Origin: a virus
IMG/VR virus record: IMGVR_UViG_3300034152_000419
Coordinates: 1-64,000 of that record
Direction: 5' to 3' (one strand)
DNA: 64,000 bases
In this document: one piece after another, positions 3,722-51,994 of the stretch
How positions within the stretch are numbered: position 1 is the first letter of the stretch
Layout of the letters: every line of letters begins with the position of its first letter
Made by a program: the position numbers and the translations under genes
Notes under the pieces: model-generated
The model's input: the letters and a program-made list of their open reading frames with translations, nothing else
The model's database searches: none
Told to the model about the DNA's origin: nothing

Positions 3722-4524
3722 TTTTTCCTCCTGATATCTGTCCGAATCTGTCTGAGACCCCGTCTTTTCAGCATTTTACAGACGACCGTGTGATCACTGA
3801 AACAGTTTTTGATCTCCGTGATAAAAAGATCGACGACGTGAGATGTTTTCATCGTTCGGAGCATATCATCAATTTCGGATTCCGGTTTTGTGCACACGTG
3901 TGCACCACAGAGAGAGCATTTTGCGACAAACATCTCCTCATCGGATAAAAATCGAACCTGACAGTCTGCCGGGAAATCAAAAATATTGATCGGGAGATCC
4001 CGACCTCGCATTTTTTCGGGTTTTCTGTCAGACCAGTATTTTTGAGGATGCACCTCTCCCATTTTGTGAATCTCAATCGGCACGACTCCCGGAAAACACT
4101 CCTCGTCCGCATGATATCCGATAGCATTGAGGACCTCCTCCCTGATCCTCTCCCTGTTCTTGTTGACCTTGTCCTCATAACTGATTGTGTGAATGATCTC
4201 CCCGCACCGATCACACAACAAAAGAGTCGATCTGCGACGGAGGTCCTCCTCGACGTTGATCCATGCCGGAAATCCTTTTGAGTAATAAGTTCGATTATAG
4301 TCCCGCACCGTGACCCCCATGATCGCGTCATCCGTGTTCTGTGCAATCTGCTCCGCGAGCATTTCGACGACCTCGTTGTAATGATCGGGATGACGTGCGT
4401 TTTCGAGCATGTCCCTGACTCTTTGCTCGATTCCAGAGTCAAGAATGTCCCTGCCGCCCCTCATGATATTATATTCAAGGTCTGAGGTATTGACCCCGAT
4501 TTTGATATCCCGGTCCTTTGCCAT
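3718..4524 (-). CDS. Zinc-binding protein of unknown function
   Basis: A 268-residue protein with two cysteine pairs, CDRCGE near residue 103 and CSLCGAHVC near residue 206, that could bind zinc across the fold. The second knuckle is encoded by one of the nine dispersed 16-bp dyads (3890-3905), which supplies AHVC. The remainder is acidic and helical. It follows two small genes downstream of the terminase. Function unknown. Confidence 0.7.
   Translation of the reverse strand: MAKDRDIKIGVNTSDLEYNIMRGGRDILDSGIEQRVRDMLENARHPDHYNEVVEMLAEQIAQNTDDAIMGVTVRDYNRTYYSKGFPAWINVEEDLRRRSTLLLCDRCGEIIHTISYEDKVNKNRERIREEVLNAIGYHADEECFPGVVPIEIHKMGEVHPQKYWSDRKPEKMRGRDLPINIFDFPADCQVRFLSDEEMFVAKCSLCGAHVCTKPESEIDDMLRTMKTSHVVDLFITEIKNCFSDHTVVCKMLKRRGLRQIRTDIRRKK
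3890..3905. repeat. Dispersed 16-bp dyad, copy 1 (exact)
   Basis: GTGCACACGTGTGCAC, a perfect palindrome inside the zinc-binding gene 3718-4524, where it is read as AHVCT and provides a cysteine of the second knuckle. Confidence 0.9.
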
Positions 4525-4527
4525 GAA

Positions 4528-4872
4528 TCACCCCCACTCTGCGAGGATTCGCGCCTTGTGCTCGACGTCCTGTCGGTTGAACCAGATGAGAGCCGCGAGC
4601 AGTGCGATTTTTTCCTCCTGATCTTTACGTTCGAGCATCCCCTCCCGGACAGCCTCAATGAGTTGCTTTCGCAGTTCGAGCAGTTTTCTCCCGGACGCAT
4701 CGACCTCCTCTTTCGGATCGAAATTGAAATCCATTTTCTGATTTTTGATCTGACGGACCGCAGAGTTTTTCACGATTTTCGCGAACTCCCGAAACATCCG
4801 ATCAAATTTGATCTCATCGTCGCGAGTGTTTCTGTGAATGAATTTCGGTGTCGGTTTCTCACTTTTGATCAT
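4528..4872 (-). CDS. Hypothetical helical protein, 114 aa
   Basis: I start this at the ATG at 4872; the in-frame extension upstream is an Arg-rich shadow of the terminase and of the 59-aa gene. The product is Lys/Glu-rich and helical (RKLLELRKQLIEAVREGMLE) and ends IWFNRQDVEHKARILAEWG. It overlaps the 59-aa gene by 14 bases. Possibly a small packaging or head accessory; unrecognised. Confidence 0.6.
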   Translation of the reverse strand: MIKSEKPTPKFIHRNTRDDEIKFDRMFREFAKIVKNSAVRQIKNQKMDFNFDPKEEVDASGRKLLELRKQLIEAVREGMLERKDQEEKIALLAALIWFNRQDVEHKARILAEWG

Positions 4873-5038
4873 CCCTCTCCTCCTCGATGTCATCATATCT
4901 TGACGGATATTTTTTCCTCTTTTTCCGAATGAATCCCGTTTCCGCCTTTGACGGGAGATCCCGGAGTCTCGCCTCCTCAAGTTTCTTGTCCATCGACTCA
5001 ATCGGAGTGCGTTCTTTCGGTGTGTGCCTGATAACCAT
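4859..5038 (-). CDS. 59-aa charged protein
   Basis: A short frame begins at an ATG immediately after the terminase TAA (TAAATG), with an AGGAGGAGAGG ribosome site. The 59 residues are strongly charged and mostly helical (MDKKLEEARLRDLPSKAET, ending DDIEEERDDQK). Tight coupling to the terminase gene suggests it is translated; the role is unknown. Confidence 0.55.
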   Translation of the reverse strand: MVIRHTPKERTPIESMDKKLEEARLRDLPSKAETGFIRKKRKKYPSRYDDIEEERDDQK

Positions 5039-9167: not shown

Positions 9168-9176
9168 TTCGCCGCC

Positions 9177-9217
9177 TCAAAAAGATTGACCGGACCCCCC
9201 ATCTGAGAGGTCCGGTC
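9177..9217 (-). terminator. Rho-independent terminator after 9225-10223
   Basis: On the minus strand a perfect 9-bp stem (9209-9217 with 9088-style partner at 9188-9196; GACCGGACC/GGTCCGGTC) with a 12-base loop is followed by AATCTTTTT. It lies eight bases past the stop of the Lys-rich gene and before the RarA-like gene, so it probably attenuates transcription between these two segments. Confidence 0.75.
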
Positions 9218-9224
9218 TCGGTTG

Positions 9225-10223
9225 TCACTCGATTCCGAGCAGATCGTCGATGTCCTGCTCGTTGTCCGTGCCGCCGGAGGTCTCGCCGCCGGAGGACTCA
9301 TCGGGATCAAACTCCGGTCCGCCTGAGTCCTTGTCATCGTCGGGATCGAACTCCGGTTCGGTTTTCTTTTTTGAGGTCGTTTTCTTTTTTGAGGTCGTTT
9401 TCTTTGCATCCGACTTTTTCGCGGTCGTCTTTTTCTTTGAGTCGGATTTTTTCGCCGTCGATTTTTTGGGTTTTTCCTCGGTCTTTTTCTCAGTTTTCGG
9501 TTTTGCTTTCGCCGCCGCCTTTTGGCCACCCTCGACCGAGATTTTGACCCCATAAGTTTTCTCGATATAGCTGATCTCGTCCTCGATTGTCCGTGCTTTC
9601 GGAGTTGCACCGAGATCCTCAAGCCACGACTGAACGATGTGAACCAGTGCCGTGACATTATTGTCGGACTCGATCAGTGCTTTCGCCTGTTCGAGACCAT
9701 CGGTGAGGATCGAGGATTCGTCGGACTGCATCTTGAACGTCATCGTCGTCAGAGTCGGGAGAGACCGATTTTTCGTGTCTTTGCGAGTGTACTTTTTGAA
9801 TATCTCCTCTTTCAGTTGACGATGAGAGAGTTTCGCCGCCAGTGCGAGGATCTCTTTTGCGTTCTCGACGTCGATGACCCCCTTGAGTTCCCGCATTTTC
9901 GTCCATCCGATTTTCTGGACTTTTGCTTTCGGGAGTCGATAGTCCTTGACCATCTGCCACACGTCGGTGAGGTAATATGCTTTTCGTTTTTGGATTCCGA
10001 GTTCAACGTCGGAATATTCCTCGAACGTGTTGAATCCCCACGTCGCATATAACTCCCCGTTTCGGACCGTGTGCATCATTTCCGCGATGACGAGATAATT
10101 TTTCTCGACCTCGGAGTTCAGATCACGGAGTTGTTTGCGGATGTCCGCATGTTTGTTCGTGACCTGTCCCTTTGACTCGGTTTTTTTCGTGCTTTTCGCC
10201 TTTGTCTTTGATTTCGTTGTCAT
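9225..10223 (-). CDS. DNA-binding-like protein with histone-H1-like Lys-rich region
   Basis: A 332-residue protein. The N-terminus is Lys/Thr-rich. Residues about 25-150 hold a helical domain with YATWGFNTFEEYSD and a possible helix-turn-helix, reminiscent of phage DUF3102-type proteins. Residues about 240-285 are a low-complexity array of AKKSDSKKKTT-like repeats that resembles histone H1 or Hc1 tails. The C-terminus is acidic with an EFDPD repeat and ends DIDDLLGIE. I infer nucleoid or recombination work on DNA. A terminator lies just downstream. Confidence 0.55.
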   Translation of the reverse strand: MTTKSKTKAKSTKKTESKGQVTNKHADIRKQLRDLNSEVEKNYLVIAEMMHTVRNGELYATWGFNTFEEYSDVELGIQKRKAYYLTDVWQMVKDYRLPKAKVQKIGWTKMRELKGVIDVENAKEILALAAKLSHRQLKEEIFKKYTRKDTKNRSLPTLTTMTFKMQSDESSILTDGLEQAKALIESDNNVTALVHIVQSWLEDLGATPKARTIEDEISYIEKTYGVKISVEGGQKAAAKAKPKTEKKTEEKPKKSTAKKSDSKKKTTAKKSDAKKTTSKKKTTSKKKTEPEFDPDDDKDSGGPEFDPDESSGGETSGGTDNEQDIDDLLGIE

Positions 10224-10240
10224 TTTTGAAACCTCCTCAA

Positions 10241-11833
10241 TTAATCAGATTGACGTTTCGGTTTTAAATGCCGGACCTTTGCCGCCGCCTTTGTCTTTGG
10301 GGGATCACCCTTTGAGACGGATCTCGCACGAGTTTTGCACCATTCACGAATAGATGTCAACTCCTCTTTGTCGCGAGTCGCCTGAGCAACCGTCTCCCGG
10401 ATAGAATCGAGGATGTGCTTTGTGTCGAGTTCGTCGTCCTGATCGAACGCCGCGAACATGGCATCCTCGATCACTCCCTCGATCTCTGCGCCTGTATAAT
10501 CAGGAGTTGCCTCCGCCAGTGCATCGAGATTGAAATCCTCCGGGTCCCTTTTGCGTTTTCGGATATGGATCTCAAAAATCTCTCGCCGCTCATTGTGCGT
10601 CGGGAGATCCGTGCACCATACCTCATCGAGACGTCCTTTGCGATAGACCATCGAGGGGACCGATGAGACATCATTTGCCGTGCAACACAGGACGACCGGA
10701 TATGTCGTCTCCTGCCGCCACGTGAGCAGTGTCGAGACCACCCGTGCCGTGACGCCGGAGTCCAGTTGTCCGCTTGCCTGTGCTCCCGCGAGACCCTTTT
10801 CGATCTCATCAACCCACAGCACGACCGGGGAGACAGCCTCCGCGACCTTGAGAGCCATTCGGACCGCAGACTCCGACTCACCGACCAGAGACCGAAATAT
10901 TTTCCCCATGTCCAGACGGAGCAGAGGGAGTCCGAGATATCGTGCCGTCGCCTTTGCCGTCAGGGATTTCCCAGTTCCCGCCGGACCGACGATCAGGACC
11001 CCTTTCGGATAGGGGAGACCGAACTCTCGCGCCTCATGAGTGAACGCCTTTTGACGCCGCGAGAGCCATTGTTTGTAATAATGGAAACCTCCGACATTTT
11101 CGAGTGTCTCCCGATGAGGCCAAAATTCAAGGACGTCGGACTTTTTGACCTCCTGCTCTTTTTGAGCATGGATGACATCAACATCGAGAGAAAATGCCGT
11201 CGCAATCGACAGAGCAATCGCGTTCTCCGCCCCTATCATGTCCAGTCCGACAGCCGCTCTCGCCGCATCGACGAGCAAATGATCGAGATCGTCTTTTTCC
11301 TCCGGGAGATCAATGTCGTCCTCGTAAGCACGAACGATCTTTCGGAATCCCTCGACGAGTTCGTCCTGTGTCGGGAGTGCGATGTCATAGACCGTGACCA
11401 GTGTTCGCAGTTCCGGGGGGAGTTCAAGGTGAGGACCGATGATAAAAACATGAGATCCCCGCAGACGGACCGTCATGATCGTGTCGATCAGGGATTGAAC
11501 GACCTGATAGTTATCGACCATTTTCCGCAGATTGTGAAACATCGCCACAACCGGACGGTCGTCCTTATTCTGAACATACTTGAGAGCATCGATGAGATCT
11601 CCCGCCGCTTGTGTCCTGTGCTCCTCCTCTGCCGACGGAGGACCGACCATCAACCCCGTCGTCGCTTTCCAGACGCCGAGTTCGACGTTGCTCATATTGA
11701 GTTCGTCGAGAGCGTCTTGAACCTTTTTCTCCGCGACCTGAGGTTCGGAGGTCCGCAGATACAAACAAGGATATCCCGCTTGAATGTAATCCGCGACCGT
11801 CGGGGGAGTGCGTTCGATTTTACCGTTTGACAT
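10241..11833 (-). CDS. Ycf46-like AAA+ ATPase
   Basis: A 530-residue ATPase. An N-terminal ~200-residue regulatory domain precedes the AAA+ core. Walker A is GPAGTGKS (283-290), then LPLLRLDMGKIF and LVGESE, Walker B is LWVDEIEKG (339-347), then CTANDVSSVP and an Arg-finger-like GRLDEVW. The order VLIVGPAGTGKSLTAKA...LRLDMG...VGESE closely follows the plastid/cyanobacterial Ycf46 group. It is the first gene after a sigma-70 promoter and a 16-bp dyad. DUF1257 and DUF2997 relatives, which I recall as genomic partners of such ATPases, lie at 26.1-26.7 kb. Confidence 0.8.
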   Translation of the reverse strand: MSNGKIERTPPTVADYIQAGYPCLYLRTSEPQVAEKKVQDALDELNMSNVELGVWKATTGLMVGPPSAEEEHRTQAAGDLIDALKYVQNKDDRPVVAMFHNLRKMVDNYQVVQSLIDTIMTVRLRGSHVFIIGPHLELPPELRTLVTVYDIALPTQDELVEGFRKIVRAYEDDIDLPEEKDDLDHLLVDAARAAVGLDMIGAENAIALSIATAFSLDVDVIHAQKEQEVKKSDVLEFWPHRETLENVGGFHYYKQWLSRRQKAFTHEAREFGLPYPKGVLIVGPAGTGKSLTAKATARYLGLPLLRLDMGKIFRSLVGESESAVRMALKVAEAVSPVVLWVDEIEKGLAGAQASGQLDSGVTARVVSTLLTWRQETTYPVVLCCTANDVSSVPSMVYRKGRLDEVWCTDLPTHNERREIFEIHIRKRKRDPEDFNLDALAEATPDYTGAEIEGVIEDAMFAAFDQDDELDTKHILDSIRETVAQATRDKEELTSIREWCKTRARSVSKGDPPKTKAAAKVRHLKPKRQSD

Positions 11834-11888
11834 AAAAAATCCTCCCTGTCCTCTTGTTTTAGATTCTGTCCTTTGCCGATGATTAAGA

Positions 11889-11917
11889 ATCGTATATCAG
11901 ATAAAAATCTTTGTCAA
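11889..11917 (-). promoter_or_regulatory. Sigma-70-type promoter upstream of AAA+ gene
   Basis: Minus-strand TTGACA (11912-11917), a 17-base A/T-rich spacer and TACGAT (11889-11894) form a near-consensus promoter 56 bases before the ATPase ATG. A copy of the dispersed 16-bp dyad begins eight bases upstream of the -35 box, so a protein bound there could touch RNA polymerase. Confidence 0.75.
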
Positions 11918-11925
11918 TCATTTTT

Positions 11926-11941
11926 GTGCACACGTGTGCAC
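11926..11941. repeat. Dispersed 16-bp dyad, copy 2 (exact)
   Basis: GTGCACACGTGTGCAC, a perfect palindrome. It is intergenic, eight bases upstream of the -35 box of the AAA+ gene promoter. Confidence 0.9.
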
Positions 11942-13131: not shown

Positions 13132-13343
13132 GGGATTCGTCCCTCCTCGTCAAGATACTCGACGGATTCATCATAAGCCTCCTCGAATCCGTGCATGATC
13201 TGACGATAGAGATCGCGTTGCAAGTTCGCCGGGAGTGTCATATAACATCGATAGCAAAACGCGAATCCCCGCTTTTTAGATCTGCCGCAGACACACTCCT
13301 CGGATTTCAGTGCGTTGAGATAAAATTCCAGATCACCCGACAT
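13128..13343 (-). CDS. Small zinc-finger protein, 71 aa
   Basis: A 71-residue protein with CVCG and CYRC flanking a short basic loop (RSKKRGFAF), a zinc-finger layout often seen in small phage proteins, followed by an acidic C-terminus. Its start overlaps the RuvC-like gene end by 11 bases and its stop reaches into the activator dyads of module A. Function unknown; DNA binding is plausible. Confidence 0.7.
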   Translation of the reverse strand: MSGDLEFYLNALKSEECVCGRSKKRGFAFCYRCYMTLPANLQRDLYRQIMHGFEEAYDESVEYLDEEGRIP

Positions 13344-13920
13344 TGAGTTCCATCCTTATGAGTTCGATCTGATCAGTATGCGTGACTTTTTTTAGGACAT
13401 CATGTTCATATTTTACGAGATCCCGCCAGTGCTCCCGTCCCGTGCACACGTGTGCACCGAGATCGCAGATCGCGACCGCGACGGAGGCATCGTTCGAGTC
13501 GGTCTCAATGTCGAATTTACGAAACACCTTGAGTTTGAATGAATCCTTTTTGAGGTTCCCCATGCCACAGAGAAACTTTTTCCACTGACCCGGAGTGACT
13601 TTGATGATCTCCCGCCCAGTGTATCGAGAGACAAACAGGTTGAGGATTCCGCAGAGTTCTCCCAGTTGAGCGAGCGACTGTCCTGAGAATCTGCCTTTTC
13701 CCGCAGAGTAAGCATAATCCTCCATGAACACGACGTCGTCATTGTGGATGATCCCCTGACATTTTTTCCAAAGAGCGAGACAGCGATTGAGACGGGACCC
13801 GTCTTTGACCGATGACGTGAATGTCCTCCACATAAAACATTGATCATCGAGAGAAAATTTCTGTCGAGCAATTCCGAGCGACGTGAACGATGGATCGATT
13901 CCGACGATTCCTGAGATCAT
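13333..13920 (-). CDS. RuvC-like Holliday junction resolvase
   Basis: A 195-residue RNase-H-fold endonuclease. The N-terminal strand GIVGIDPSFTSLGIA carries the first catalytic Asp (D9), VVFMEDYAY carries E67, and DSNDAS near the C-terminus supplies D141/D144, the standard RuvC arrangement. Expected role: cleavage of branched DNA during recombination and before packaging. It clusters with RecA-like, Cas4-like and helicase genes. A dispersed dyad adds AHVCT after the last catalytic Asp. Confidence 0.85.
   Translation of the reverse strand: MISGIVGIDPSFTSLGIARQKFSLDDQCFMWRTFTSSVKDGSRLNRCLALWKKCQGIIHNDDVVFMEDYAYSAGKGRFSGQSLAQLGELCGILNLFVSRYTGREIIKVTPGQWKKFLCGMGNLKKDSFKLKVFRKFDIETDSNDASVAVAICDLGAHVCTGREHWRDLVKYEHDVLKKVTHTDQIELIRMELNVG
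13442..13457. repeat. Dispersed 16-bp dyad, copy 3 (exact)
   Basis: GTGCACACGTGTGCAC inside the RuvC-like gene, read as AHVCT shortly after the catalytic acidic pair, and 311 bases upstream of the first UAS dyad of sigma-54 module A. Confidence 0.9.
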
Positions 13921-15852: not shown

Positions 15853-16990
15853 CGCTTTCCTCCCGGAGTCTATTTTTCGCCGCTCGAATTATGTCCATTT
15901 GTGCCTTATAATAATATTCAGGCTTTTTGACCCACAACTCGACGATCTGATCAAGAGTGCGAGCATTGAGTTTGCCATATTTCCACGGTTTCGCACCGGA
16001 AACTTTTTCAATGACGCCGAACTCTTTTGCATAATTCAAAACAGTTCTATGATCACCGATCATCCCCGGTTTCAGACCGAGATCCGGCATCTCCTCCCTG
16101 ATTCTGACGAACTCACCGGACCCCGCGAGCGTGAGGACTTTTTCTTTTTTAATGGAGAACGCATGTCGGACCGCTTTGTCCCGATCCGTGCTTTTGTCCC
16201 CCTTATATTTCCGATCCGCAGAGGCATCGAGGACCTTTTTCACGCATCTCAGGAGCAGAGAGTTCTCGTGCCGCAGTCCCCACCCTCCGGGCATCGTCTC
16301 CGGGGACCCGAACGTGACCCCGATCTTTGTCCTCATCTGATTGATAAAAATCACGATGCACGGATGTTCTCGTTTGCGTTCCCTCATGAGTTGTTGTTTG
16401 AATTTTCGGATCATTTTTCCGATGAGCCGCGCCTGTAAAGCATAAAAGTCCTGTTCTGCCGGAGCGTCATATTCGCTCTCCGGGACCAGTGCCGCGAGCG
16501 AGTCCACGACGAGGATTCCGCAGTCGTCCGCCTTGAGGACATTTTTCCCGATGTTCACATACTGTTCACCGTAGTCCGCAATCACACAGACATATCGCTC
16601 AGGATCAGCACCGATGTTCGTGACCCACGTCCGATCAAGCGTTCCCTCGATATCAAGCCACACCCCATCGAGTTTCAGTGGACTCCGGGAGCATTTGCAA
16701 AATGGGAGCAGACTAAAACATTTCCAACAAATACTCTGACCCATCGCGAGAATGTTTGCCGCCAGTGATGACTTTCCTCCCGCCTCCGGTCCCCACAAAC
16801 AACATGACGTGTAAACCGGGACACCCCCTCCCGTTGCGTAGTCAACCGCAAAAACTCCGAACGGGACACGATCCGGGTCCTTTTTAAGTCCGGTCCCATA
16901 AAACATCGTCCCCGCACCGAGATTCTCATTCTCTGCCGCGATGATTGCCGCGAGAGTCGTTGTCCCATCGTCAGACTTTTTCTTTGTCAT
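15836..16990 (-). CDS. RecA/UvsX-like recombinase with zinc knuckle insertion
   Basis: A 384-residue strand-exchange ATPase. Walker A GPEAGGKSS (67-75), Walker B ILVVDSLAALVP (about 159-170) and the DNA-loop region INQMRTKIGVTFGSPETMPGG are all RecA-like. Between the Walker A helix and the next strand lies CWKCFSLLPFCKC (C88, C91, C98, C100), a zinc-knuckle-like insertion not found in standard RecA. Expected role: homologous recombination and replication restart. Coupled by short overlaps to endonuclease and downstream genes. Confidence 0.9.
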   Translation of the reverse strand: MTKKKSDDGTTTLAAIIAAENENLGAGTMFYGTGLKKDPDRVPFGVFAVDYATGGGVPVYTSCCLWGPEAGGKSSLAANILAMGQSICWKCFSLLPFCKCSRSPLKLDGVWLDIEGTLDRTWVTNIGADPERYVCVIADYGEQYVNIGKNVLKADDCGILVVDSLAALVPESEYDAPAEQDFYALQARLIGKMIRKFKQQLMRERKREHPCIVIFINQMRTKIGVTFGSPETMPGGWGLRHENSLLLRCVKKVLDASADRKYKGDKSTDRDKAVRHAFSIKKEKVLTLAGSGEFVRIREEMPDLGLKPGMIGDHRTVLNYAKEFGVIEKVSGAKPWKYGKLNARTLDQIVELWVKKPEYYYKAQMDIIRAAKNRLREESGEQDV

Positions 16991-17325
16991 CCCTTTTTCT
17001 CCCTGTCGATATCGGATTGAATTTCATCGATTTCGGTCTCAATCAGATCCTCGACCATTTTTCGAGTCTGCTTGTAAACCGAGACGATCTCCTCGACATA
17101 ACAGGGGACCGTCAACATGATATCCAGACGGACTCCGGCATAATCAGCCGTCGGAATCGTTGCTCCCATCTTGACGGAAACATGAGCCGGATTCGTGACG
17201 AACGGTCTGACTTTTATCCGTTCATTTTTTCGCTTTGACTTGAGGTTTGTGTCTCCGAGAACAGTCCGGGACACTGAGAGAGACGCCTCGTCACTGGAAA
17301 TCCGGTCGATCTGTTTTTTCGGCAT
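16987..17325 (-). CDS. Hypothetical protein next to RecA-like gene, 112 aa
   Basis: Starts at 17325 after GGAGGGGTTGAT. A strand-rich centre (VRPFVTNPAHVSVKMGATI, then AGVRLDIMLTVPCYVEEI) is followed by a long acidic helix (KMVEDLIETEIDEIQSDID). This beta-then-helix layout recalls small recombination mediators or ssDNA-binding accessories in phages, but I cannot name the family. Translationally coupled (ATGA) to the RecA-like gene. Confidence 0.65.
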   Translation of the reverse strand: MPKKQIDRISSDEASLSVSRTVLGDTNLKSKRKNERIKVRPFVTNPAHVSVKMGATIPTADYAGVRLDIMLTVPCYVEEIVSVYKQTRKMVEDLIETEIDEIQSDIDREKKG

Positions 17326-17326
17326 A

Positions 17327-17767
17327 TCAACCCCTCCATCCGGCATGAATCCTCGACCGGAGTTCATCCGTTGTGATCTCTTTTGCATCATACAAAGAGA
17401 ACAAGTCTTTCAACATGATTGCCTGATCGACGGAATAAAGTCTCCACCCCCGCTTGTCATGATAGAGGGGAGAGGGAAACAATCCGGTCCGATGATACCA
17501 CCGAATCGTTTGAATTTCACGATTGATCGCCTGACCGAGTTTGCCGATGGAGATGAACTTTTTTCCATTCCGCCCGGAGAACACGTGACGGTCTGACGGT
17601 TTGTCAGGTTTCGATTCGTCATAGATCTCCCGTGCACGTTGTCTGATCCGCTCGCGATATTCTTTGTCATCTTGATATCGCTTTCGCCTCCGTTCGAGGA
17701 TTTTGTCTCTGTTTCTCCGATAATATTCTGTTTGAGAGAACGGTCTCTCTCCTCTCCTGCGTCCCAC
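17327..17767 (-). CDS. MerR-family-like DNA-binding protein
   Basis: A 146-residue protein. The N-terminal third is an Arg/Lys-rich helix (RRNRDKILERRRKRYQD). Residues about 70-125 form a MerR-type winged helix: SIGKLGQAINREIQTIRWYHRTGLFPSP, then a GWRLYSVDQAIML wing-helix. It may act as a regulator or excisionase-like architectural protein. The start is a GTG (17765-17767) seven bases after AGGAGG. It lies between helicase and RecA-like genes. Confidence 0.75.
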   Translation of the reverse strand: MGRRRGERPFSQTEYYRRNRDKILERRRKRYQDDKEYRERIRQRAREIYDESKPDKPSDRHVFSGRNGKKFISIGKLGQAINREIQTIRWYHRTGLFPSPLYHDKRGWRLYSVDQAIMLKDLFSLYDAKEITTDELRSRIHAGWRG

Positions 17768-17779: not shown

Positions 17780-19159
17780 TCATTTTTCCGTGATCTGTTT
17801 CATCTTGAGAGTTTTTCCTTGATAGTACCTGAGACGGGACCTCGACCATCCGACAGCGTCATCATAATATGAATCGACGATGTCCACGACCACAGGTTGA
17901 GACTTTCCCTCAAGCAACCGCTCGATCCGTCCCTGAGTCTGACGGACGTCGCTCTGAGGTGTCGCATATACCAGACCCGCGAGATCCGCGATGTCTGTCC
18001 CGATCCCCGCTTTTCCGTAAGTTGCGAGAACAACTTTGCACACGTGTGCACTGTGCCGCAGTTCCGACGGTCTGACTTTTCGTTTCGTCTTTCCCTCCGG
18101 GACCGTGTCACAATAAAAACCGACTGTGTCGAGATCATATCCGAAATCAAGAATCAGCATCCGCCGCAGATCGACCAGTTGTTGAGTCCGGTCCGAGAGA
18201 ACAAGGACCCGCCGATCCGATTCTGAAATTAAATGAATATACTTGCACAAGATCCGGTTTCTGTCCTGATTCGTTGACAGCCGGGAGAGCAACATTCCAC
18301 GTCGGTTGATTTTCGTCGATCCCGGATGGACATATCCCGATGACTCAGGATAATCGATCACAAGGACTTTCGGATTCATCCGACCGTGATCGCCTCCCCG
18401 GATCAATGTCTGTCCGATATGATATTCATTGATTAAATGGAGACCGTCTTTGCGCGTGACCGTCGCCGATGCACCGATCCGATATCTCGCCGGAAACATG
18501 CACAGCACCGGGGAGAACGTCGCCGGGGGGACAGACCTGTCCACCTCATCGAAAACCGCAATCCCGAAATTTTCACGAAACCGACGATTGTCGTTGAGAC
18601 GTGCCGCCAGTGAGTGAACCAGTCCGACGACGATTCTCTTTTTCTCCCAGTTGACCTCTTTCCCGTTAACGATCCCGATCTCCGATCTTTTCAGGGATGT
18701 GTGTTGAGCAATCCGGGAGACCCACTGCTCGACCAGATTCGACCGGGGGACGACGACAATCGCCGATCTGCCGATCATCTGAATCATCTTGATCATCACG
18801 ACGGTTTTCCCGAATCCCGGAGGAGCATCAACCACGAATCCTGTGACCCCGGAGTCGAGTTGCTTTTTGAACATTTTGAGAACCGGGATCTGACCGGGAC
18901 GCATCTCTGACAAAAAATCATATTTGATCTTTGACCCGTCGAGACGGGTATCAGAGATCTCACGAGCGAGATCCGTCCATCGTGTCGTGTAATATAATGG
19001 AATCCCGAACATCGTCGGAGTCTCAAGAAATGTCGGAAATTCCGACCTGTCATATCGACTGACGACCGTCAGTTTTTCCCTGAGACGACCGATTCGATCC
19101 GGTCCGAGTTCATCCACCGGGACGAACACGTGAGTGTGAATAATTGCTTTTGAAAACAT
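17780..19159 (-). CDS. Superfamily 2 DNA helicase (UvsW/RadD-like)
   Basis: A 459-residue DExH helicase. Motif I is APPGFGKTVVM, motif Ia VVVPRSNLVEQW, motif II VFDEVDRS (DEVD), motif III RIGASAT, and the C-terminal RecA domain has VLVLSD, VVLATYGKAGIGTDI (motif V) and QTQGRIERLL (motif VI QxxGRxxR). Likely branch migration or recombination-dependent replication. A dispersed dyad encodes AHVCK immediately before motif V. It sits directly after the SSB gene. Confidence 0.9.
   Translation of the reverse strand: MFSKAIIHTHVFVPVDELGPDRIGRLREKLTVVSRYDRSEFPTFLETPTMFGIPLYYTTRWTDLAREISDTRLDGSKIKYDFLSEMRPGQIPVLKMFKKQLDSGVTGFVVDAPPGFGKTVVMIKMIQMIGRSAIVVVPRSNLVEQWVSRIAQHTSLKRSEIGIVNGKEVNWEKKRIVVGLVHSLAARLNDNRRFRENFGIAVFDEVDRSVPPATFSPVLCMFPARYRIGASATVTRKDGLHLINEYHIGQTLIRGGDHGRMNPKVLVIDYPESSGYVHPGSTKINRRGMLLSRLSTNQDRNRILCKYIHLISESDRRVLVLSDRTQQLVDLRRMLILDFGYDLDTVGFYCDTVPEGKTKRKVRPSELRHSAHVCKVVLATYGKAGIGTDIADLAGLVYATPQSDVRQTQGRIERLLEGKSQPVVVDIVDSYYDDAVGWSRSRLRYYQGKTLKMKQITEK
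18036..18051. repeat. Dispersed 16-bp dyad, copy 4 (one outer mismatch)
   Basis: TTGCACACGTGTGCAC: the 14-bp core TGCACACGTGTGCA is intact and one outermost base differs. It lies in the SF2 helicase gene, read as AHVCK just before the motif V region. Confidence 0.85.
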
Positions 19160-25751: not shown

Positions 25752-26039
25752 CTAATTTTTGAAAAATGATTCGACAGGGATTCCCTGAAACAGGACCCCG
25801 TTGAGAACTTTGATCTCATGTGCAATCGCCTCGGATCTTTTTGCGAATGTGTCGGAGAGTCTTTTCCTCGAACCGTCGAGCATGTTCACCTCGACGAACC
25901 ATTTTTGTTCATCCTCGTCGAACAGCACATTCGATGCACGAATGACACTGACCCGTCCCTCGGTGACAATCGGGGAGTCCTCATCATACAAGCAAAACAC
26001 CTCCCCGTGTGCCGTGATCTTGAACGTCGTTGCTTTCAT
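25752..26039 (-). CDS. Hypothetical protein, 95 aa
   Basis: Starts at the ATG at 26039 after GGAGGACAGGG. It is strand-rich (TTFKITAHGEVFCLYDED, then RVSVIRASNVLF and KWFVEVNMLDGSRKRL) with a final helix. Unrecognised. An exact 16-bp dyad lies 27 bases upstream of the ATG. It is the last gene before a strong terminator. Confidence 0.65.
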   Translation of the reverse strand: MKATTFKITAHGEVFCLYDEDSPIVTEGRVSVIRASNVLFDEDEQKWFVEVNMLDGSRKRLSDTFAKRSEAIAHEIKVLNGVLFQGIPVESFFKN

Positions 26040-26065
26040 CCCTGTCCTCCGCCAGTGTCCCCCCA

Positions 26066-26081
26066 GTGCACACGTGTGCAC
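26066..26081. repeat. Dispersed 16-bp dyad, copy 5 (exact)
   Basis: GTGCACACGTGTGCAC in the short gap between 26100-26294 and 25752-26039. Flanking CCC and GGG extend its symmetry with one mismatch per arm. Confidence 0.9.
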
Positions 26082-26099: not shown

Positions 26100-26294
26100 T
26101 TATTGACCGACGTGAACTCCGCCGGACCCCTCCTGATAAAATTCAGGTTTTCGTTTCTTGTCCCGGACCTCGCCGAGTGCGTTCATCGCCTTTTTCGCGA
26201 GATCCTCACACTTTCCGCCTGTGAAACCCTCAGCGTCGAACTTGACGTCCGAACCATCCGGGGAGATCGTGATTGTCAAAGTACCGTCAGACAT
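26100..26294 (-). CDS. DUF2997-like protein
   Basis: A 64-residue protein beginning GTLTITISPDGSDVKFDAEGFTGGKC, the strand pattern of DUF2997 (xIxxxISPDG...GFxGxxC), followed by a helix (EDLAKKAMNALGEV). Function is unknown. It lies next to a DUF1257-like gene, as I recall for cyanobacterial and other bacterial clusters that also carry a Ycf46-like ATPase. Confidence 0.65.
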   Translation of the reverse strand: MSDGTLTITISPDGSDVKFDAEGFTGGKCEDLAKKAMNALGEVRDKKRKPEFYQEGSGGVHVGQ

Positions 26295-26312
26295 TTACTC
26301 ACCTCCTCCCAT

Positions 26313-26696
26313 TTACATTGACGCCGCACGGAGGACGATTGAGCCGTCGTTCTGCTCGACGGTCTCCGTGACCATTCCCCCGCTCTGCGTGATCCCGTTT
26401 CGGACGACTCCGACCGCATAATCACGCATGAGTTTTCCACCATTCGCACCGAGACGCCGAGTGATCGACGAATAGTGAGCGTCGGTGTCCAGTGCGAGAC
26501 GATATGCTCCACCCTCACGGACGAGATATCCCTGAGAGCCTCCCTGCGTGTCCCTGAGGATCGCATGAACCGGATATCCGTTCCACTGCATCCGCTCATC
26601 CCGGTTCAGATTATACTCGATCCCGTGTTGACGACACACATTTTTGAACATCGTGAGGTCCGAGATCTTGACCCCGACTTTCGCCCAAAATGACAT
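26313..26696 (-). CDS. DUF1257 (Ycf35)-like protein
   Basis: A 127-residue protein whose start (SFWAKVGVKISDLTMFKNVCRQHG) and body (GYPVHAILRD..GSQGYLVREGGAYRLALDTD) follow the DUF1257/Ycf35 pattern of a small alpha/beta protein with an early IxDL helix. Function unknown. The adjacent DUF2997-like gene and the distant Ycf46-like ATPase support the assignment by association. Confidence 0.6.
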   Translation of the reverse strand: MSFWAKVGVKISDLTMFKNVCRQHGIEYNLNRDERMQWNGYPVHAILRDTQGGSQGYLVREGGAYRLALDTDAHYSSITRRLGANGGKLMRDYAVGVVRNGITQSGGMVTETVEQNDGSIVLRAASM

Positions 26697-28854: not shown

Positions 28855-28905
28855 AACGAATCCGGGACCCCAGTGCACACGTGTGCAACCGAGATCCCGG
28901 TTCGT
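28853..28905 (-). terminator. Probable terminator enclosing a 16-bp dyad
   Basis: Minus-strand ACGAACCGGGA pairs with TCCCGGATTCGT (one bulge), the loop contains dyad copy 6, and TTTTG follows. It sits 48 bases past the end of 28953-29720 and would close the portal/MuF transcript before sigma-54 module B. The T-run is short. Confidence 0.5.
28873..28888. repeat. Dispersed 16-bp dyad, copy 6 (one outer mismatch)
   Basis: GTGCACACGTGTGCAA with the 14-bp core intact. It sits in the loop of a larger inverted repeat (28856-28905) that looks like a terminator, and 19 bases from the second UAS dyad of sigma-54 module B. Confidence 0.85.
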
Positions 28906-34911: not shown

Positions 34912-37563
34912 TCAGATTTTCAACTCCTCCATCTCAGCGAGATTCTGACCGATTTCAGCCTCGGCCTTGAGAGGGACGACCAGTTCAACCCCGAAATCCC
35001 TTTTCAGCGGGGGGTTTTCCATTTCGTTAATTATTGCTCCTGCATAGTCTGTCACTCGACTGCAATCCTTAATCAAAAAAACGAGAGAGTCGTGAATGAA
35101 CAGCACAGGGAAAAAATAATCAGGATCAAAAATTTCTTTTTTTCGCGACTCGTTAAGTGCAATCAGCACCGTGTCGGATGACGGACTTTGAATCGGATGA
35201 TTTATCGCTTGCCGCTCTGCCTCCCATCGGACACCCTTGTCGTTTGAGTGGATTTCGGGGAGATGACGCCGACGTCCGAACACTGATTCAACATAACCCT
35301 TTTGACGACAAAATTCAACGATTTCCTCGTGATATCGTTCGAGTCCCGGATATTTCCCGAAAAAGATATTGACCCAGTCCTCCGCTTGTTCATATTCAAG
35401 ATCGATCCCATACTCCTCTTTTGCATATCGGATGAAACCCGCGACTGTCATTCTGAACAGGAGACCGAAATTCACGGACTTTGCATCCCGTCGAGCTTTC
35501 CATTTTTCAAATTTGTCAAGTTCGTCAAAAGGTTTCGGGGAGAGAGACTTTGCAGTTTCCGTGTGAATGTCGAGCGAGGCATCCCGGAAAATTCGGATCA
35601 TGTTTCTGTCGAGTGAGACATGAGACGCCCATCTCAATTCAGATTGACTCTCATCGACCTCAAGCAACAACCATCCGGGGGGAGCAGATATCAGCCGCCG
35701 GATTTTCTTTGCCGACTTTGATCTCTTTGGATTGTTCATCATGTTCGGATCGGAGGATGCAATCCGACCCGTGACCGCGACCACGAGAGAAAACTTTGAA
35801 TGAATTTTCCCGTCGTGCCGGATGTGCTGGTCGAATCCGTTGAGATATCGACTCCACAGTGTATGTAATTCTTTAAACTCTCCGAACTCTGTGAGAAACC
35901 GCTCCGCATTTTTTGTGAGTCTGCCGTCGAGCAGTTCTTTTCGGACCGCTTTGTCTGCCGCCGGGAGTCCGCTTTTTGTTTTCTTGATCGACTTGAGCCG
36001 GAATCCCTGAGGATCAAAAAGAATATCCCGGACCAGTTCAGACCGAGTGAGGACAATCCCGTCCTTTTTATTCTTTGCGATGTTTTTCTTTCGGTGATCG
36101 TCGCGATGGAGAACTTTTTTCGGGACCGTCATGAGTGCTTTGCGTTGATGCTTGAGCATCTCAATTCGGACCTCCTCCGCGACCTCCGGGAGAGCCGCAC
36201 GATCAATCGGACACCCATTCGACTCAAGCATCATGAGTGATTTCAGAGTCGGCATAATAAACTTGACGAGATAGTTCACATATTTCGGGTTTTTCGCGAG
36301 TTCTTTTTTCAATCCCTGTGTGACCTGATATGTGACATCTGCGTCCTGTGCCGCATAATCTGTCCGCGACTCACGGGGGACGGACAACATATCCGCCTTG
36401 TCATATTTTTTCTCGAACTCAATATTGTATTCGTTTTTAATATTGCTATAAAATTTTTGCAGTTCGTCGAGTCTCGACATCTTGAACAGGTTTTCATCGA
36501 TCAAGTGTGACGCCGCTTGAGTATCGATGACCCATCCCTCTATTTTTGGGAGATATCCTCTCTCCCTCGCGAATGTCGTCTCAATGCAGTGAAAATCAAA
36601 TGACCCATTATGTGTATAAATGCGGATATTCTCATCCGCGAGCAGTGCCTCGATCTCATCGAGTTTCCGTTCAAAGTCCTCGACCCTTTTGACATAGACA
36701 TCGACGAGTTGTCTCTTTTTCTTTCCCGGAGGGATTCGATTCCACTTGAAAGTATAATCCCACGAATCCCCCGCTCCGACCTCCTCGAACAATACGAAAT
36801 CATATCCAGACCCCGACTTATCCGACAGGGAGAGCGAAATCATTATATAATTCGGATCAAGCCAGTCGAGACCCTGTCCCTCCGTGTCGAGAGCGACGGG
36901 TTTTTTCTGATCGATCAAAAACTGAATCGAGTCCACCTCCTGATAGTGTGTGACCCGACTGTCCTCCGGGGGAGTGTAATTATTCCGCATAAACCGCTTG
37001 ACGGTTTTGAGATCCTCCACGAGCAGAGGTTTGAGGGATCGGTTTCTGAGAATATATGCAGGATGGAAACAAGGCATCACATAACAGTCGAACTCTTTTG
37101 AGAACTCATATCGACCACGTGCCTTTGTGATTCCAGACTTTCGGAGGATCTGACGGAGTGCGAAATCCCCGGAGGCGATGATCAATTTCGGTTTGAGGAT
37201 CTCGATTGTCCTTGTCACATATTCCCGACAAAAACTCAGAGCAGAGGTGATCTCTTTCCCTGACATTTTGCTTTTGTCGATCCGACATCGGGCGGAGTTC
37301 ATGACGTAGAACCGAGAGAAAACGAGACCCGCCTCCTCCGCACATTCTTTGATCATGTCTCCCGCCGCACCGACAAACGGTTTCCCCTCGACCTCCTCGT
37401 TATATCCGGGAGATTCCCCGATGAAAACAACTTTCGCCTTTTTGTTTCCACCATAGGGGACCTCGATTTTCTTAAACAGAGGACACTCCCGGATTCGACA
37501 TTTTTTGCCGCCTGTGTCTTTTCGTTTCTGCTTGAATCTAATTTTTCGGACCTGTGATTTCAT
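34912..37563 (-). CDS. Uracil-DNA-glycosylase/DNA polymerase A fusion
   Basis: An 883-residue polymerase. Residues ~1-200 form a family-4-type UDG domain: paired Cys (KCRIREC), GESPGYNEEVEGKPFVGAAG (about 49-68, written here within limit), MNSARCRID and CFHPAYILRN. A 3'-5' exonuclease follows (VALDTEG, IYTHNGSFDF, YAAQDADVTY). The polymerase has motif A LEVDESQSELRWA, motif B RRDAKSVNFGLLF and motif C FIHDSLVF. SPO1-type polymerases are known to carry a similar N-terminal domain. It is coupled to a clamp-like gene upstream and lies between lysis and portal genes. No clear ribosome site; coupling is likely. Confidence 0.9.
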   Translation of the reverse strand: MKSQVRKIRFKQKRKDTGGKKCRIRECPLFKKIEVPYGGNKKAKVVFIGESPGYNEEVEGKPFVGAAGDMIKECAEEAGLVFSRFYVMNSARCRIDKSKMSGKEITSALSFCREYVTRTIEILKPKLIIASGDFALRQILRKSGITKARGRYEFSKEFDCYVMPCFHPAYILRNRSLKPLLVEDLKTVKRFMRNNYTPPEDSRVTHYQEVDSIQFLIDQKKPVALDTEGQGLDWLDPNYIMISLSLSDKSGSGYDFVLFEEVGAGDSWDYTFKWNRIPPGKKKRQLVDVYVKRVEDFERKLDEIEALLADENIRIYTHNGSFDFHCIETTFARERGYLPKIEGWVIDTQAASHLIDENLFKMSRLDELQKFYSNIKNEYNIEFEKKYDKADMLSVPRESRTDYAAQDADVTYQVTQGLKKELAKNPKYVNYLVKFIMPTLKSLMMLESNGCPIDRAALPEVAEEVRIEMLKHQRKALMTVPKKVLHRDDHRKKNIAKNKKDGIVLTRSELVRDILFDPQGFRLKSIKKTKSGLPAADKAVRKELLDGRLTKNAERFLTEFGEFKELHTLWSRYLNGFDQHIRHDGKIHSKFSLVVAVTGRIASSDPNMMNNPKRSKSAKKIRRLISAPPGWLLLEVDESQSELRWASHVSLDRNMIRIFRDASLDIHTETAKSLSPKPFDELDKFEKWKARRDAKSVNFGLLFRMTVAGFIRYAKEEYGIDLEYEQAEDWVNIFFGKYPGLERYHEEIVEFCRQKGYVESVFGRRRHLPEIHSNDKGVRWEAERQAINHPIQSPSSDTVLIALNESRKKEIFDPDYFFPVLFIHDSLVFLIKDCSRVTDYAGAIINEMENPPLKRDFGVELVVPLKAEAEIGQNLAEMEELKI

Positions 37564-38269
37564 CGAAATTCGGTTTCTCGATTGTCTCGTTCAGATCCAT
37601 CGGCATAAAAGCACCGACGACATCGTTGACGAAACCCTGATTTTTGACCCGGATCTGAACCGGAGTGATGTTCGATTCTTTCATTCCAAAGAATGACGCC
37701 GAGGGAAATTTTTTGACCGCGAAATCAAAATACATTCCTTGAACCGGGACCATCGTCTCTCCGGTTTCGTCACATAACCAGATCAACTCGATCCCTCCGA
37801 GATCAGACATTTGCCAGATCCGGGGAGTGAGTTCGACGAGATTTTTCATTTTATTCACAGAACCGAGAGTCGCCGGGACCGCTTTTTGAAATTCCGCCGA
37901 TCCTTTTTTCGGTTTCATCGACGCATAAGGTTTCGCAAAAATCAGGAAATATCCGTCTGAAATAAAGGTTTTCTTTTTGTAAGTTCCCGTCAACCATTGT
38001 CCGTCAGTGTCTCTGACTTTCAAGTGATCTGATTTTTTGCGACGTTCAAAAGGCAACCCCCGTCGGAGATCCGCAATTCTGCTCTTGAAAGCCTCTGCCT
38101 TTTTGATCCCCTCCTCGGTGAGGTTTCCCTTTTTGTCGCACAGACCCGCTTGTTCGAGACGGATTATTGATTCGGGATCGATTGAGATCATCCGGTTCGC
38201 ATAATCGATCTTTTTGATCTCCATATCTGCGCGGGACAGACACACGAGATCGTCCACGGATAAAACCAT
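37538..38269 (-). CDS. Possible sliding-clamp-like or polymerase accessory protein
   Basis: A 243-residue protein starting at the ATG at 38269 after GGAGGTGTCAG. The N-terminal half is helical and basic. The C-terminal half alternates strands (GIELIWLCDETG, MVPVQGMYFDFAV, TPVQIRVKNQGFV) and ends VNDVVGAFMPMDL, reminiscent of the last strand of DnaN-like clamps (xxMPM). It overlaps the polymerase gene by 26 bases and is driven by a promoter abutting a 16-bp dyad. The clamp idea is inference from layout and context. Confidence 0.4.
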   Translation of the reverse strand: MVLSVDDLVCLSRADMEIKKIDYANRMISIDPESIIRLEQAGLCDKKGNLTEEGIKKAEAFKSRIADLRRGLPFERRKKSDHLKVRDTDGQWLTGTYKKKTFISDGYFLIFAKPYASMKPKKGSAEFQKAVPATLGSVNKMKNLVELTPRIWQMSDLGGIELIWLCDETGETMVPVQGMYFDFAVKKFPSASFFGMKESNITPVQIRVKNQGFVNDVVGAFMPMDLNETIEKPNFDEITGPKN

Positions 38270-38304
38270 CTGACACCTCCTCATGATATGATTAAAATTA
38301 CCTA

Positions 38305-38333
38305 TACATATCACAGGTGAATGTTTTTGTCAA
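38305..38333 (-). promoter_or_regulatory. Sigma-70-type promoter for clamp-like/polymerase genes
   Basis: Minus-strand TTGACA (38328-38333), a 17-base spacer ending TGA and TATGTA (38305-38310). The 16-bp dyad (38334-38349) abuts the -35 box exactly, the closest dyad-promoter spacing in the window, suggesting direct control. Confidence 0.6.
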
Positions 38334-38349
38334 GTGCACACGTGTGCAC
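38334..38349. repeat. Dispersed 16-bp dyad, copy 7 (exact)
   Basis: GTGCACACGTGTGCAC, exactly abutting the -35 TTGACA of the promoter for the clamp-like/DNA polymerase genes and overlapping nothing else. Confidence 0.9.
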
Positions 38350-38350
38350 G

Positions 38351-38521
38351 TCACACGTCGGGGAGATTTTCCGGTTTATTCTGAACGAATTTTTCTTTTT
38401 CTCCCTGATAGATCAGATCGATTTCCTCATCGGTCTTTCCCGCAGTTTTCATCAACGAAAAAGCACCATTGATCAAGGTTTTCGCGACCTCGATCAGCGC
38501 GAGAGCAGTGACTTGATCCAT
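38351..38521 (-). CDS. Small hypothetical protein, 56 aa
   Basis: Starts at the ATG at 38521 after AGGAGGTTTACA. A hydrophobic-amphipathic helix (VTALALIEVAKTLINGAFSLMKTAG) is followed by an acidic helix (TDEEIDLIYQGEKEKF). It belongs to the lysis/virion region by position. Not recognised. Confidence 0.6.
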   Translation of the reverse strand: MDQVTALALIEVAKTLINGAFSLMKTAGKTDEEIDLIYQGEKEKFVQNKPENLPDV

Positions 38522-38562
38522 TGTAAACCTCCTCAGTTTCAATCAGTTAAAAGCGACCCGGA

Positions 38563-38940
38563 TCAATCGACCACAAGGACCGCGAGTTGATCCAGATAAT
38601 TGATAATTTTTTGTTCGGTTTCCGTTGACGGGACCGCGCCTGAGTCCACATAGGACATATAAAGTTCGATCAGAGGATAGACCTCAGACAGAATCTTTTT
38701 CTTTTTTCGGAGGATCTCCCGCTCCGCCTCTGTCAATTCAGGTTTTGCCGCCTGTGTTTGATAATTTGAATATTGCTTGTTATACATACTCATCATGAAC
38801 GTCGCTTTTTCTTTCGCCGACATCTCATCGAATGTCTTGATATTATTCGTCGGACACCCTATCAGAGCAATCGACATGAAAGCGACAGCGAGCAACATGA
38901 CGAGCAGTCCCAAAAAACGCGAGAACTGAATTTTGTTCAT
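38563..38940 (-). CDS. Lipoprotein, possible outer spanin
   Basis: A 125-residue protein with a signal sequence (FLGLLVMLLAVAFMSIALIGC) ending in a lipobox, LIGC, so the mature protein should begin at that Cys. The mature part is helical and charged. In a lysis cassette next to a holin-like gene and an endolysin it could be an o-spanin, although it is not Pro-rich as many are. It supports an outer-membrane-bearing host. Confidence 0.65.
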   Translation of the reverse strand: MNKIQFSRFLGLLVMLLAVAFMSIALIGCPTNNIKTFDEMSAKEKATFMMSMYNKQYSNYQTQAAKPELTEAEREILRKKKKILSEVYPLIELYMSYVDSGAVPSTETEQKIINYLDQLAVLVVD

Positions 38941-38987
38941 TTAACACCTCCTCGTTTTTGTCCATTCAACCATTGATCCCGGATCGA

Positions 38988-39248
38988 TTAAACTCCCGGA
39001 GGACTTGGGGGAGTTGTGCGTCCTCCCGTCAATAGAGCAGTCTTGTCAGAACTGCCTTTCGATGATCCGAAAAACCAGTTCACGACGGTCGTCGCGAGGA
39101 CGATCCATGCACCGACGATCATGTTCAGGATCTTTTCCAGAAAATCAGGGACCCTCTCCGGCATGAAAAAGACACTCCCGGAAATAGCCAAAAATCCGAT
39201 GAGCACTATGACCGCGATTGCAATCTGACCCTTTGTCATGTTTGTCAA
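38988..39248 (-). CDS. Holin-like two-span membrane protein
   Basis: An 86-residue protein with two transmembrane helices (IAIAVIVLIGFLAISGSVFF and LNMIVGAWIVLATTVVNWFF) and a C-terminal SSKGSSDKTALL tail; the VNWFFGSSxGSxxKT signature is common among phage holins. It should form the membrane lesion releasing or activating the endolysin. The start is a TTG (39246-39248) because AGGAGGTGA lies eight bases upstream, while the nearest ATG is nine bases further in. Confidence 0.75.
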   Translation of the reverse strand: MTNMTKGQIAIAVIVLIGFLAISGSVFFMPERVPDFLEKILNMIVGAWIVLATTVVNWFFGSSKGSSDKTALLTGGRTTPPSPPGV

Positions 39249-44173: not shown

Positions 44174-44225
44174 CTGAGCCTCCTGTCATGATTCTCTGCC
44201 GAGTCTGATTCAGGATCAGTTTATA

Positions 44226-44957: not shown

Positions 44958-44975
44958 AGCACACCTCCGATGATA

Positions 44976-44991
44976 GTGCACACGTGTGCAC
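44976..44991. repeat. Dispersed 16-bp dyad, copy 8 (exact)
   Basis: GTGCACACGTGTGCAC in the 36-base gap between the putative spanin-like gene (44994-45296) and the structural gene 44226-44957. No promoter is visible beside it. Confidence 0.9.
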
Positions 44992-44993
44992 AT

Positions 44994-47878: not shown

Positions 47879-47881
47879 TTT

Positions 47882-49735: not shown

Positions 49736-50078
49736 TTGCATCGCCTCCGTCAACTACTTGAGAGGGGAGATAGACACTGTCCGCGACACCCCCCTCGACG
49801 TTTCGATCTGCCGTGATCGATTCGTCCTGTCCGAGATCCTCCCATTCAGTTTGAACGTCAAGATGATCGAGAGCATCTGAGATCGAGAGATCCGAGGTTC
49901 CATCGTTAATCACGATCTGAGCCGCCGAAACACGAGTTTTCAAAGACTCAGATTGAGTGATATCGTCGAGAGAAAACAGTTCCGTGAGGTTCCGTTGCTC
50001 TCCTGCTTTCACGACGAGTCCGAGATCCTCAATTCCGATATCGGACCCGCCGGGATTTTTCGCGATGATCGTTGTCAT
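49728..50078 (-). CDS. Fibre-associated protein, 116 aa
   Basis: The first ~75 residues (IIAKNPGGSDIGIEDLGLVV, then IVINDGTSDLSISDALDHL) are paralogous to the start of the next fibre gene. The C-terminus is acidic and Gly-rich. It may be a small adaptor that shares an attachment domain with the large fibre. Confidence 0.65.
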   Translation of the reverse strand: MTTIIAKNPGGSDIGIEDLGLVVKAGEQRNLTELFSLDDITQSESLKTRVSAAQIVINDGTSDLSISDALDHLDVQTEWEDLGQDESITADRNVEGGVADSVYLPSQVVDGGDANG

Positions 50079-50081
50079 ATC

Positions 50082-51503: not shown

Positions 51504-51528
51504 TATTCAACCCTCCTCATATAATGTT

Positions 51529-51969
51529 TTAAATTCTCCACGCAATCTCCGCCGATATCACGGGATAATCGACCTCCCCCGATGTCATTTTCAACCGGAG
51601 CACGTCATCCTCGTTAATATCGACATCGGTGACAAAGACATCGCCACGTTCGCCGATCACCGAGAACTGATACACCATGACCTCGGACGGACTGCGAAAC
51701 ACGAGAATCTGAAATGTTCCACTTGCAGAGGACTTGAACTCGACTGTCACTCCTGTGATTGTGGCATCCCTTGGAATCCGATATCCGCAATTATTTGAAA
51801 CAACACCCCCGTCGATTTTCAGATATCGCGGAGGTCTGATTTTCTTGTGGTTCGCACCGAACAGAAAAACTTTTGTGTCACTGAGCCATTTATCCCGAAA
51901 ATCATCATAAAAATAAAGGACCCCGTCGTTTCCCTGCCTGAAATTTTGTGTGTGTAAGTCTCTGAGCAT
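51529..51969 (-). CDS. Short fibre-tip protein, 146 aa
   Basis: A stand-alone copy of the fibre C-terminal module: FYDDFRDKWLSDTKVFLFG, RDATITGVTVEF and the end YPVISAEIAWRI align with the C-termini of 50082-51503 and the middle/end of 47882-49735. It could be an alternative or accessory receptor-binding tip. Confidence 0.7.
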   Translation of the reverse strand: MLRDLHTQNFRQGNDGVLYFYDDFRDKWLSDTKVFLFGANHKKIRPPRYLKIDGGVVSNNCGYRIPRDATITGVTVEFKSSASGTFQILVFRSPSEVMVYQFSVIGERGDVFVTDVDINEDDVLRLKMTSGEVDYPVISAEIAWRI

Positions 51970-51978
51970 CGTTCCCCC

Positions 51979-51994
51979 GTGAACACGTGTGCAC
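51979..51994. repeat. Dispersed 16-bp dyad, copy 9 (one internal mismatch)
   Basis: GTGAACACGTGTGCAC: one base breaks the symmetry in the left arm. It is intergenic between 51994-52374 and the fibre gene 51529-51969. Confidence 0.8.

Follow-up and report, generated by a model that had tools for sequence, protein, structure and literature searches.

Background

Why should a virus repeat one 16-letter palindrome, almost letter for letter, along its genome? The question is raised by a 64,000-nucleotide stretch of viral DNA (positions 1 to 64,000 of IMG/VR record IMGVR_UViG_3300034152_000419, hereafter the window), in which GTGCACACGTGTGCAC occurs as nine near-identical copies, six of them perfect and three with one mismatch. 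We consider it probable that these palindromes are the operators of a phage-encoded protein with a ParB-like fold (window 9225-10223, minus strand; family phrog_17202), which would control promoters and also act from distal sites.

A dispersed palindrome with a sharp consensus

The parent record of the window (G000, an IMG/VR virus of 76,828 bp that may be incomplete) holds two further perfect copies, at 68455 and 74330, which brings the total to 11. Forms with two or three mismatches are absent from the record and the consensus is a sharp one. Shuffled sequences, with up to three mismatches allowed, contained a mean of 0.09 copies and at most 2, as against the nine of the window. On recount, the nine coordinates and mismatch counts given by the first-pass annotation proved exact, and its judgement that chance does not account for the copies holds. 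The genes of the window lie almost all on the minus strand; three copies (3890, 13442 and 18036) fall within genes, as had been reported, and the other six in short gaps or over gene starts. The single mismatches distinguish the copies at 18036 (TTGC...), 28873 (...GCAA) and 51979 (GTGAAC...). The sites, together with two adjoining promoters, are as follows.

3890..3905: site 1, GTGCACACGTGTGCAC, within gene 3718-4524
11889..11917, minus strand: promoter adjoining site 2, sigma70-like, TTGACA-17-TACGAT
11926..11941: site 2, perfect; upstream of a -35 box 8 bp away, ahead of the AAA ATPase/regulator gene pair
13442..13457: site 3, perfect; within the RuvC-like gene 13333-13920
18036..18051: site 4, within the helicase gene 17780-19159, where it spans codons 370-375; one outer mismatch
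26066..26081: site 5, perfect; located where open reading frame (ORF) 25752-26081 starts
28873..28888: site 6, intergenic, with one outer mismatch
38305..38333, minus strand: promoter adjoining site 7, sigma70-like, TTGACA-17-TATGTA
38334..38349: site 7, perfect; abuts the -35 box that precedes the DNA polymerase gene pair
44976..44991: site 8, perfect; on a boundary between genes
51979..51994: site 9, in a gene gap, with one internal mismatch

Other 10-bp palindromes are also repeated in the parent record, GGAGATCTCC six times and GATCATGATC five times. Its gene content is siphovirus-like (portal, tape measure, DnaB, primase, DNA polymerase A, UvsX and RuvC). The first 25 kb found no DNA-level match in the phage collection, which hence yields no close named relative of this phage.

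The nearest relative, a genome of 99.8 kb (G001), was found by way of the polymerase (45% identity) and is collinear with the window phage over much of its length. It is without the 16-mer and carries about 20 dispersed copies of a TTGCAA[GT]CG[AC]TTGCAA-type palindrome; the motifs of both genomes fit xTGCAxxCGxxTGCAx. In the helicase gene the site occupies the same codons in the same phase (370-375 in the window phage, aligned with 367-372 in G001) with different letters, and the RuvC gene of G001 also holds a site, as does that of the window phage (site 3). The first-pass annotation had let its case depend on copies at equivalent places in close relatives; sites do lie at equivalent places, one of them to the exact codon, with their letters changed.

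A protein that accompanies the sites

An exact search of IMG/VR for the 16-mer returned mostly prophages of ~38 kb (~57-68% G+C), which are unrelated to the window phage and encode a full-length ParB of 700-860 amino acids. They typically hold 3-7 dispersed copies each with two mismatches allowed (records in the G003-G027 range), often at gene starts; isolated examples are Acidovorax phage Aval (5) and Variovorax phage VarioGold (6 copies of TGCA-N6-TGCA). Taken as a known system for comparison, this group shows 5-7 dispersed copies of an identical or nearly identical palindrome. We set them aside as relatives and note them in passing as a second ParB-operator system, useful by analogy only. 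Their possession of the same palindrome together with a full ParB suggested a ParB-type binder for the window phage as well, and such a protein, with its neighbour, is encoded as follows.

9225..10223, minus strand: candidate site-binding protein of 332 amino acids, phrog_17202; ParB-like helix-turn-helix domain at residues 21-150, second helical domain at 167-224, lysine-rich tail
10241..11833, minus strand: AAA ATPase, phrog_8638; directly upstream of the regulator gene, behind site 2

When 101 ORFs of the window phage were tested by profile against 13 genomes, those present in all 13 were terminase-like, recombination and replication proteins and phrog_17202, the last being the only one outside replication/recombination and packaging. 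For this protein the scan used sub-alignments, the full set of 13 sequences being too divergent. Among 21 motif-bearing records tested, phrog_17202 was confined to the window phage, G001 and G006, which are the three that are large and have several sites; none of the ~38-kb ParB prophages tested gave a match. Relatives retrieved by tblastn belong to large phages of Vibrio, Rhodobacter, Rhizobium, Stenotrophomonas and Aeromonas, and lysine-rich tails recur in several homologues.

AlphaFold, supplied with 49 sequences, modelled residues 31-140 with block means of 93-98 and placed the helix-turn-helix at 67-75 and 79-94; modelled alone, this domain reached a predicted local distance difference test score (pLDDT) of 92.6. 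Five of its top six fold matches in the PDB (Foldseek) were Spo0J-parS, ParB (including ParB-CDP) and Noc-NBS. From the predicted structure, then, the protein is likely akin to ParB. The ParB_N CTPase domain (PF02195) was found neither in the 332-residue protein nor anywhere in the parent record. The first-pass annotation, which had proposed looking for a phage parB, is supported as to a ParB-like helix-turn-helix and not as to PF02195, and the CTP clamp that it had considered finds no counterpart here.

Three other candidates were rejected. The terminase-adjacent ParB_N protein is absent from G000, SIO-2 and 29Fa.3, all of which have sites, while a MerR-like protein (17327-17767) and a 134-residue protein (16987-17391) are each missing from some site-bearing genomes.

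The TGCA-N6-TGCA framework

The presence of phrog_17202 relatives in large phages predicted that dispersed palindromes would be found there, and they were: Rhodobacter phage RcKickapoo has 26 copies of a TGCAATCGATTGCA-type element and HJ05 has 7 copies of TGCAACCGGTTGCA. Agrobacterium phage JP1, first picked through its polymerase as a possible control, proved to carry the protein and has 35 copies of TGCAAACGTTTGCA; Pseudomonas phage SM1, whose protein surfaced in the structure search, has 30. A homologue was found on a single plasmid, Rhizobium bangladeshense p7 (NZ_CP071625.1, circular, resident, 109 kb and possibly a phage-plasmid), which has 53 sites of the form TGCAAC..GTTGCA. The window phage, G001, RcKickapoo, JP1 and p7 share the framework TGCA-N6-TGCA, with inner letters that differ by lineage; in 29Fa.3, GCAATTAATTGC takes its place (15 copies). 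The controls P1, N15, T4 and MW202455, which are without the protein, contain 0-1 copies of TGCA-N6-TGCA.

An unbiased scan of the 13 genomes for all 4- and 5-mer inverted repeats with spacers of 0-14 ranked TGCA-N6-TGCA, or the inner part of it, first or close to first in 12 of them, with 8-46 copies in 11 of these. Independent support came from 60 IMG/VR loci fetched solely for encoding a relative of the window protein: TGCA-N6-TGCA occurred 325 times against 20.1 expected, with an excess at spacer 6 only. Other spacers and the other 15 palindromic 4-mers stayed near expectation in these loci, AATT showing a mild excess because some motif variants contain it. The further the rest of the protein has diverged, the further the motif tends to have done so (r 0.45). 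Over whole genomes the sites are spread more evenly than chance would have it (Fisher combined p 5e-10). They are enriched in non-coding gaps (~81 against 29 expected, summed over 12 genomes), an approximate figure since the crude ORF caller includes spurious ORFs, and most sites still lie inside genes. No earlier report of the motifs was found in the open-access papers searched, which may leave prior reports elsewhere, and the same search for DUF3102 returned nothing relevant.

Sites, promoters and the genes behind them

Promoters were taken as matches to the sigma70 consensus and gene starts from ORF scans. A -35 box begins 15 or 16 bp from the site centre in 19 cases across the 13 genomes, against ~0.2 expected; in the independent loci, offset 15 alone accounts for 11 cases against 0.14 expected. 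Such promoter-phased sites make up about a tenth of all sites and leave ~8 bp between the site edge and the -35 box. In the window phage one phased site is that at 11926, ahead of the AAA ATPase and the regulator; that at 38334, ahead of the polymerase gene pair, has a tighter spacing.

Of 21 gene families surveyed for upstream sites, three stand out clearly: the regulator gene (7 of 12 genomes, 0.7 expected), the head maturation protease (7 of 11) and the AAA ATPase (5 of 11). Among the independent loci, 19 of 52 have a site upstream of the regulator gene, against 5.3 expected. In both the window phage and G001 the upstream site reaches the regulator through the ATPase-regulator gene pair. 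This layout points to autoregulation and to control of the head operon.

As we picture it, the 332-residue protein presumably binds the sites, a dimer of its helix-turn-helix domain contacting TGCA-N6-TGCA with the six inner letters set by lineage. A minority of sites, set at a constant short distance before the -35 box, would control transcription, among others of the head operon, the AAA ATPase and the regulator's own gene. All other sites, evenly spread and many of them in genes, may act at a distance by bridging, spreading or blocking, much as do the distal OB sites of RK2 KorB.

Weighing the explanations

Several results weigh against the operator explanation. Shared site positions between the window phage and G001 do not exceed chance significantly when all intervals are counted (8 against 5.9 expected, p 0.17), and exceed it modestly once the large unresolved intervals are left out (6 against 2.3, p 0.013). 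At some 90% of sites the fixed offset holds no promoter. In the inverted-repeat scan the exception was Vibrio phage 1.215.A (W05), where the protein is present and no clear dispersed palindrome was seen; either its sites have been lost or its motif is a different one. No sequence-profile match of the 332-residue protein to ParB was found, and phmmer and hmmsearch against the PDB gave no significant match. The Foldseek matches are individually weak (E 0.65-2.9, the best being 0.65; probability 0.35-0.89), and for that reason kinship with ParB is likely, not proven. Finally, co-variation of the recognition helix with the inner motif letters does not go beyond that of the rest of the protein (partial Mantel r -0.15, p 0.93), a test that disposed of a pattern seen by eye (K/R where the phage motif has TGCAC, mostly Y where it has TGCAA).

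The sites could instead be bound by another protein (a host factor, the ParB_N protein beside terminase or a replication enzyme), with the phrog_17202 gene merely travelling along. A separate ParB_N protein does occur in 9 of the 13 genomes, adjoining the terminase genes in G001 and DLP3, and the ~38-kb prophages pair the identical 16-mer with a full-length ParB. However, it is missing from the three site-bearing genomes named above, and its gene has a site upstream in only 1 of 9 cases as against 7 of 12 for phrog_17202. Lineage-specific motifs across phages of many hosts are hard to explain by a host factor. We regard this alternative as unlikely.

A second alternative takes the sites for dispersed centromeres of the N15 or P1 kind, by which the lysogen would keep the phage genome as a partitioned plasmid. 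In its favour are the ParB-like DNA-binding domain, the homologue with its 53 sites on the resident plasmid p7 and the report that group member DLP5 persists as a plasmid prophage (PMC5834331). Yet ParA (PF13614) scored above cut-off in none of 14 group members, the P1 control being found, and so ParABS partition is not supported and was rejected. The sites are spread evenly rather than grouped, and the gene is present in group member R21Y, which is described as lytic (PMC10671443). Centromeres are therefore an improbable general explanation, although, since DLP5 lives as a plasmid prophage, some members may use the system for maintenance.

No more probable, in our estimation, is that the sites are L5-type stoperators, on which an immunity repressor blocks transcription elongation in the prophage. 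Their number, their dispersal and their enrichment in non-coding gaps would suit this, but the sites, being palindromic, can have no orientation relative to transcription, some of them keep a fixed distance to promoters, most lie inside genes and the gene occurs in R21Y, described as lytic. Of the two options named by the first-pass annotation, stoperators and a partition or silencing system of the ParB-like/CTP-clamp kind, what survives is a regulatory role and a DNA-binding protein that resembles ParB; the CTPase clamp and ParABS partition do not. That the sites merely organise or condense phage DNA, in a nucleoid-like or packaging role and with no gene regulation, would accord with the even spacing, the lysine-rich tails and the majority of sites that have no promoter link, but the exact promoter spacing and the placement of sites upstream of a few specific genes make it very unlikely.

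Implications and other features

The operator explanation suggests a likely function and a candidate binding site for a family whose members are for the most part labelled hypothetical, in phages of Vibrio, Rhizobium, Agrobacterium, Rhodobacter, Pseudomonas, Stenotrophomonas and Aeromonas, and a regulatory wiring of these phages that takes in regulator, ATPase and head operon. Dozens of sites that shift specificity together make the co-evolution of a ParB-like binder and its sites testable across many lineages, and the system bears on whether ParB-type proteins can act genome-wide without a CTP clamp. More tentatively, and with greater doubt than hope, we raise the idea of a widespread new genome-wide control system, in which a CTPase-less ParB-fold protein would serve up to ~50 evenly spread TGCA-N6-TGCA sites that change specificity in concert across each genome, switching promoters at a fixed distance and organising the whole of the phage DNA; the CTPase half may come, in most members, from the separate ParB_N protein, which would make this a split ParB.

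Other genes of the two phages deserve mention. The window encodes (30141-33128, minus strand) a 995-residue Mu F-like minor head protein. Its C-terminal part matches models of PI3/PI4-kinases and, weakly, those of Fam20C/HipA-type kinases, that is, a kinase-like domain fused to a virion protein. Adjoining small proteins at 26100-26696 (minus strand) match DUF2997 and, weakly, DUF1257, and a sulfotransferase-like gene (phrog_3347, galactose-3-O-sulfotransferase) lies at 1321-1938 (minus strand). The DNA polymerase A of G001 (35705-39064, minus strand) has an N-terminal uracil-DNA-glycosylase-like domain and an in-frame insert, which the window phage is without, that matches intein-splicing and HNH models below cut-off.

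Comparison with known systems

Mycobacteriophage L5 stoperators resemble the present sites in being many, dispersed and served by one regulator. They are asymmetric, oriented and bound by the immunity repressor, whereas the sites described here are palindromic. Unlike the dispersed centromeres of N15, the sites of the window phage are not accompanied by SopA/SopB-type partition genes, the parent record having yielded neither ParA nor ParB_N. Noc and its NBS sites come closer, in that Noc is derived from ParB, its palindromes are dispersed, it has no ParA partner and Noc-NBS is among the top fold matches. Noc, though, has a CTPase domain, acts on the host chromosome and recognises a site that differs from that of the phage. 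ParB (Spo0J) is among the top fold matches, and with parS the window phage shares a 16-bp perfect palindrome centred on CACGTG, a resemblance to parS (TGTTTCACGTGAAACA) in length and centre that had been pointed out from the start. The arms differ, as also noted then (GTGCA in the phage, TGTTT in parS), so that the phage palindrome is not TGTTTCACGTGAAACA; the phage protein is without the N-terminal CTPase domain, no ParA was found and the sites are evenly dispersed.

The nearest parallel is KorB of plasmid RK2, whose OB operators lie either proximal (4-10 bp) or distal (45 bp to >1 kb) upstream of target promoters (PMC11790492). The two systems have in common a 16-bp operator, an operator upstream of the regulator's own gene and a two-class layout, in which about a tenth of phage sites precede the -35 box by a few bp while the others are far from it; a DNA-binding domain of ParB type is probably shared as well. 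They differ in that the phage protein is without the CTPase domain that drives sliding in KorB, and in that the phage operator has another sequence, drifts between lineages and is found in phage genomes with up to ~50 sites. With ParA not found in the phage group and the CTPase domain absent, we file the phage system under neither ParABS nor KorB. By analogy, the best reading is of a global regulator that would work like KorB, without its CTPase domain, and whose specificity drifts from one phage lineage to the next.
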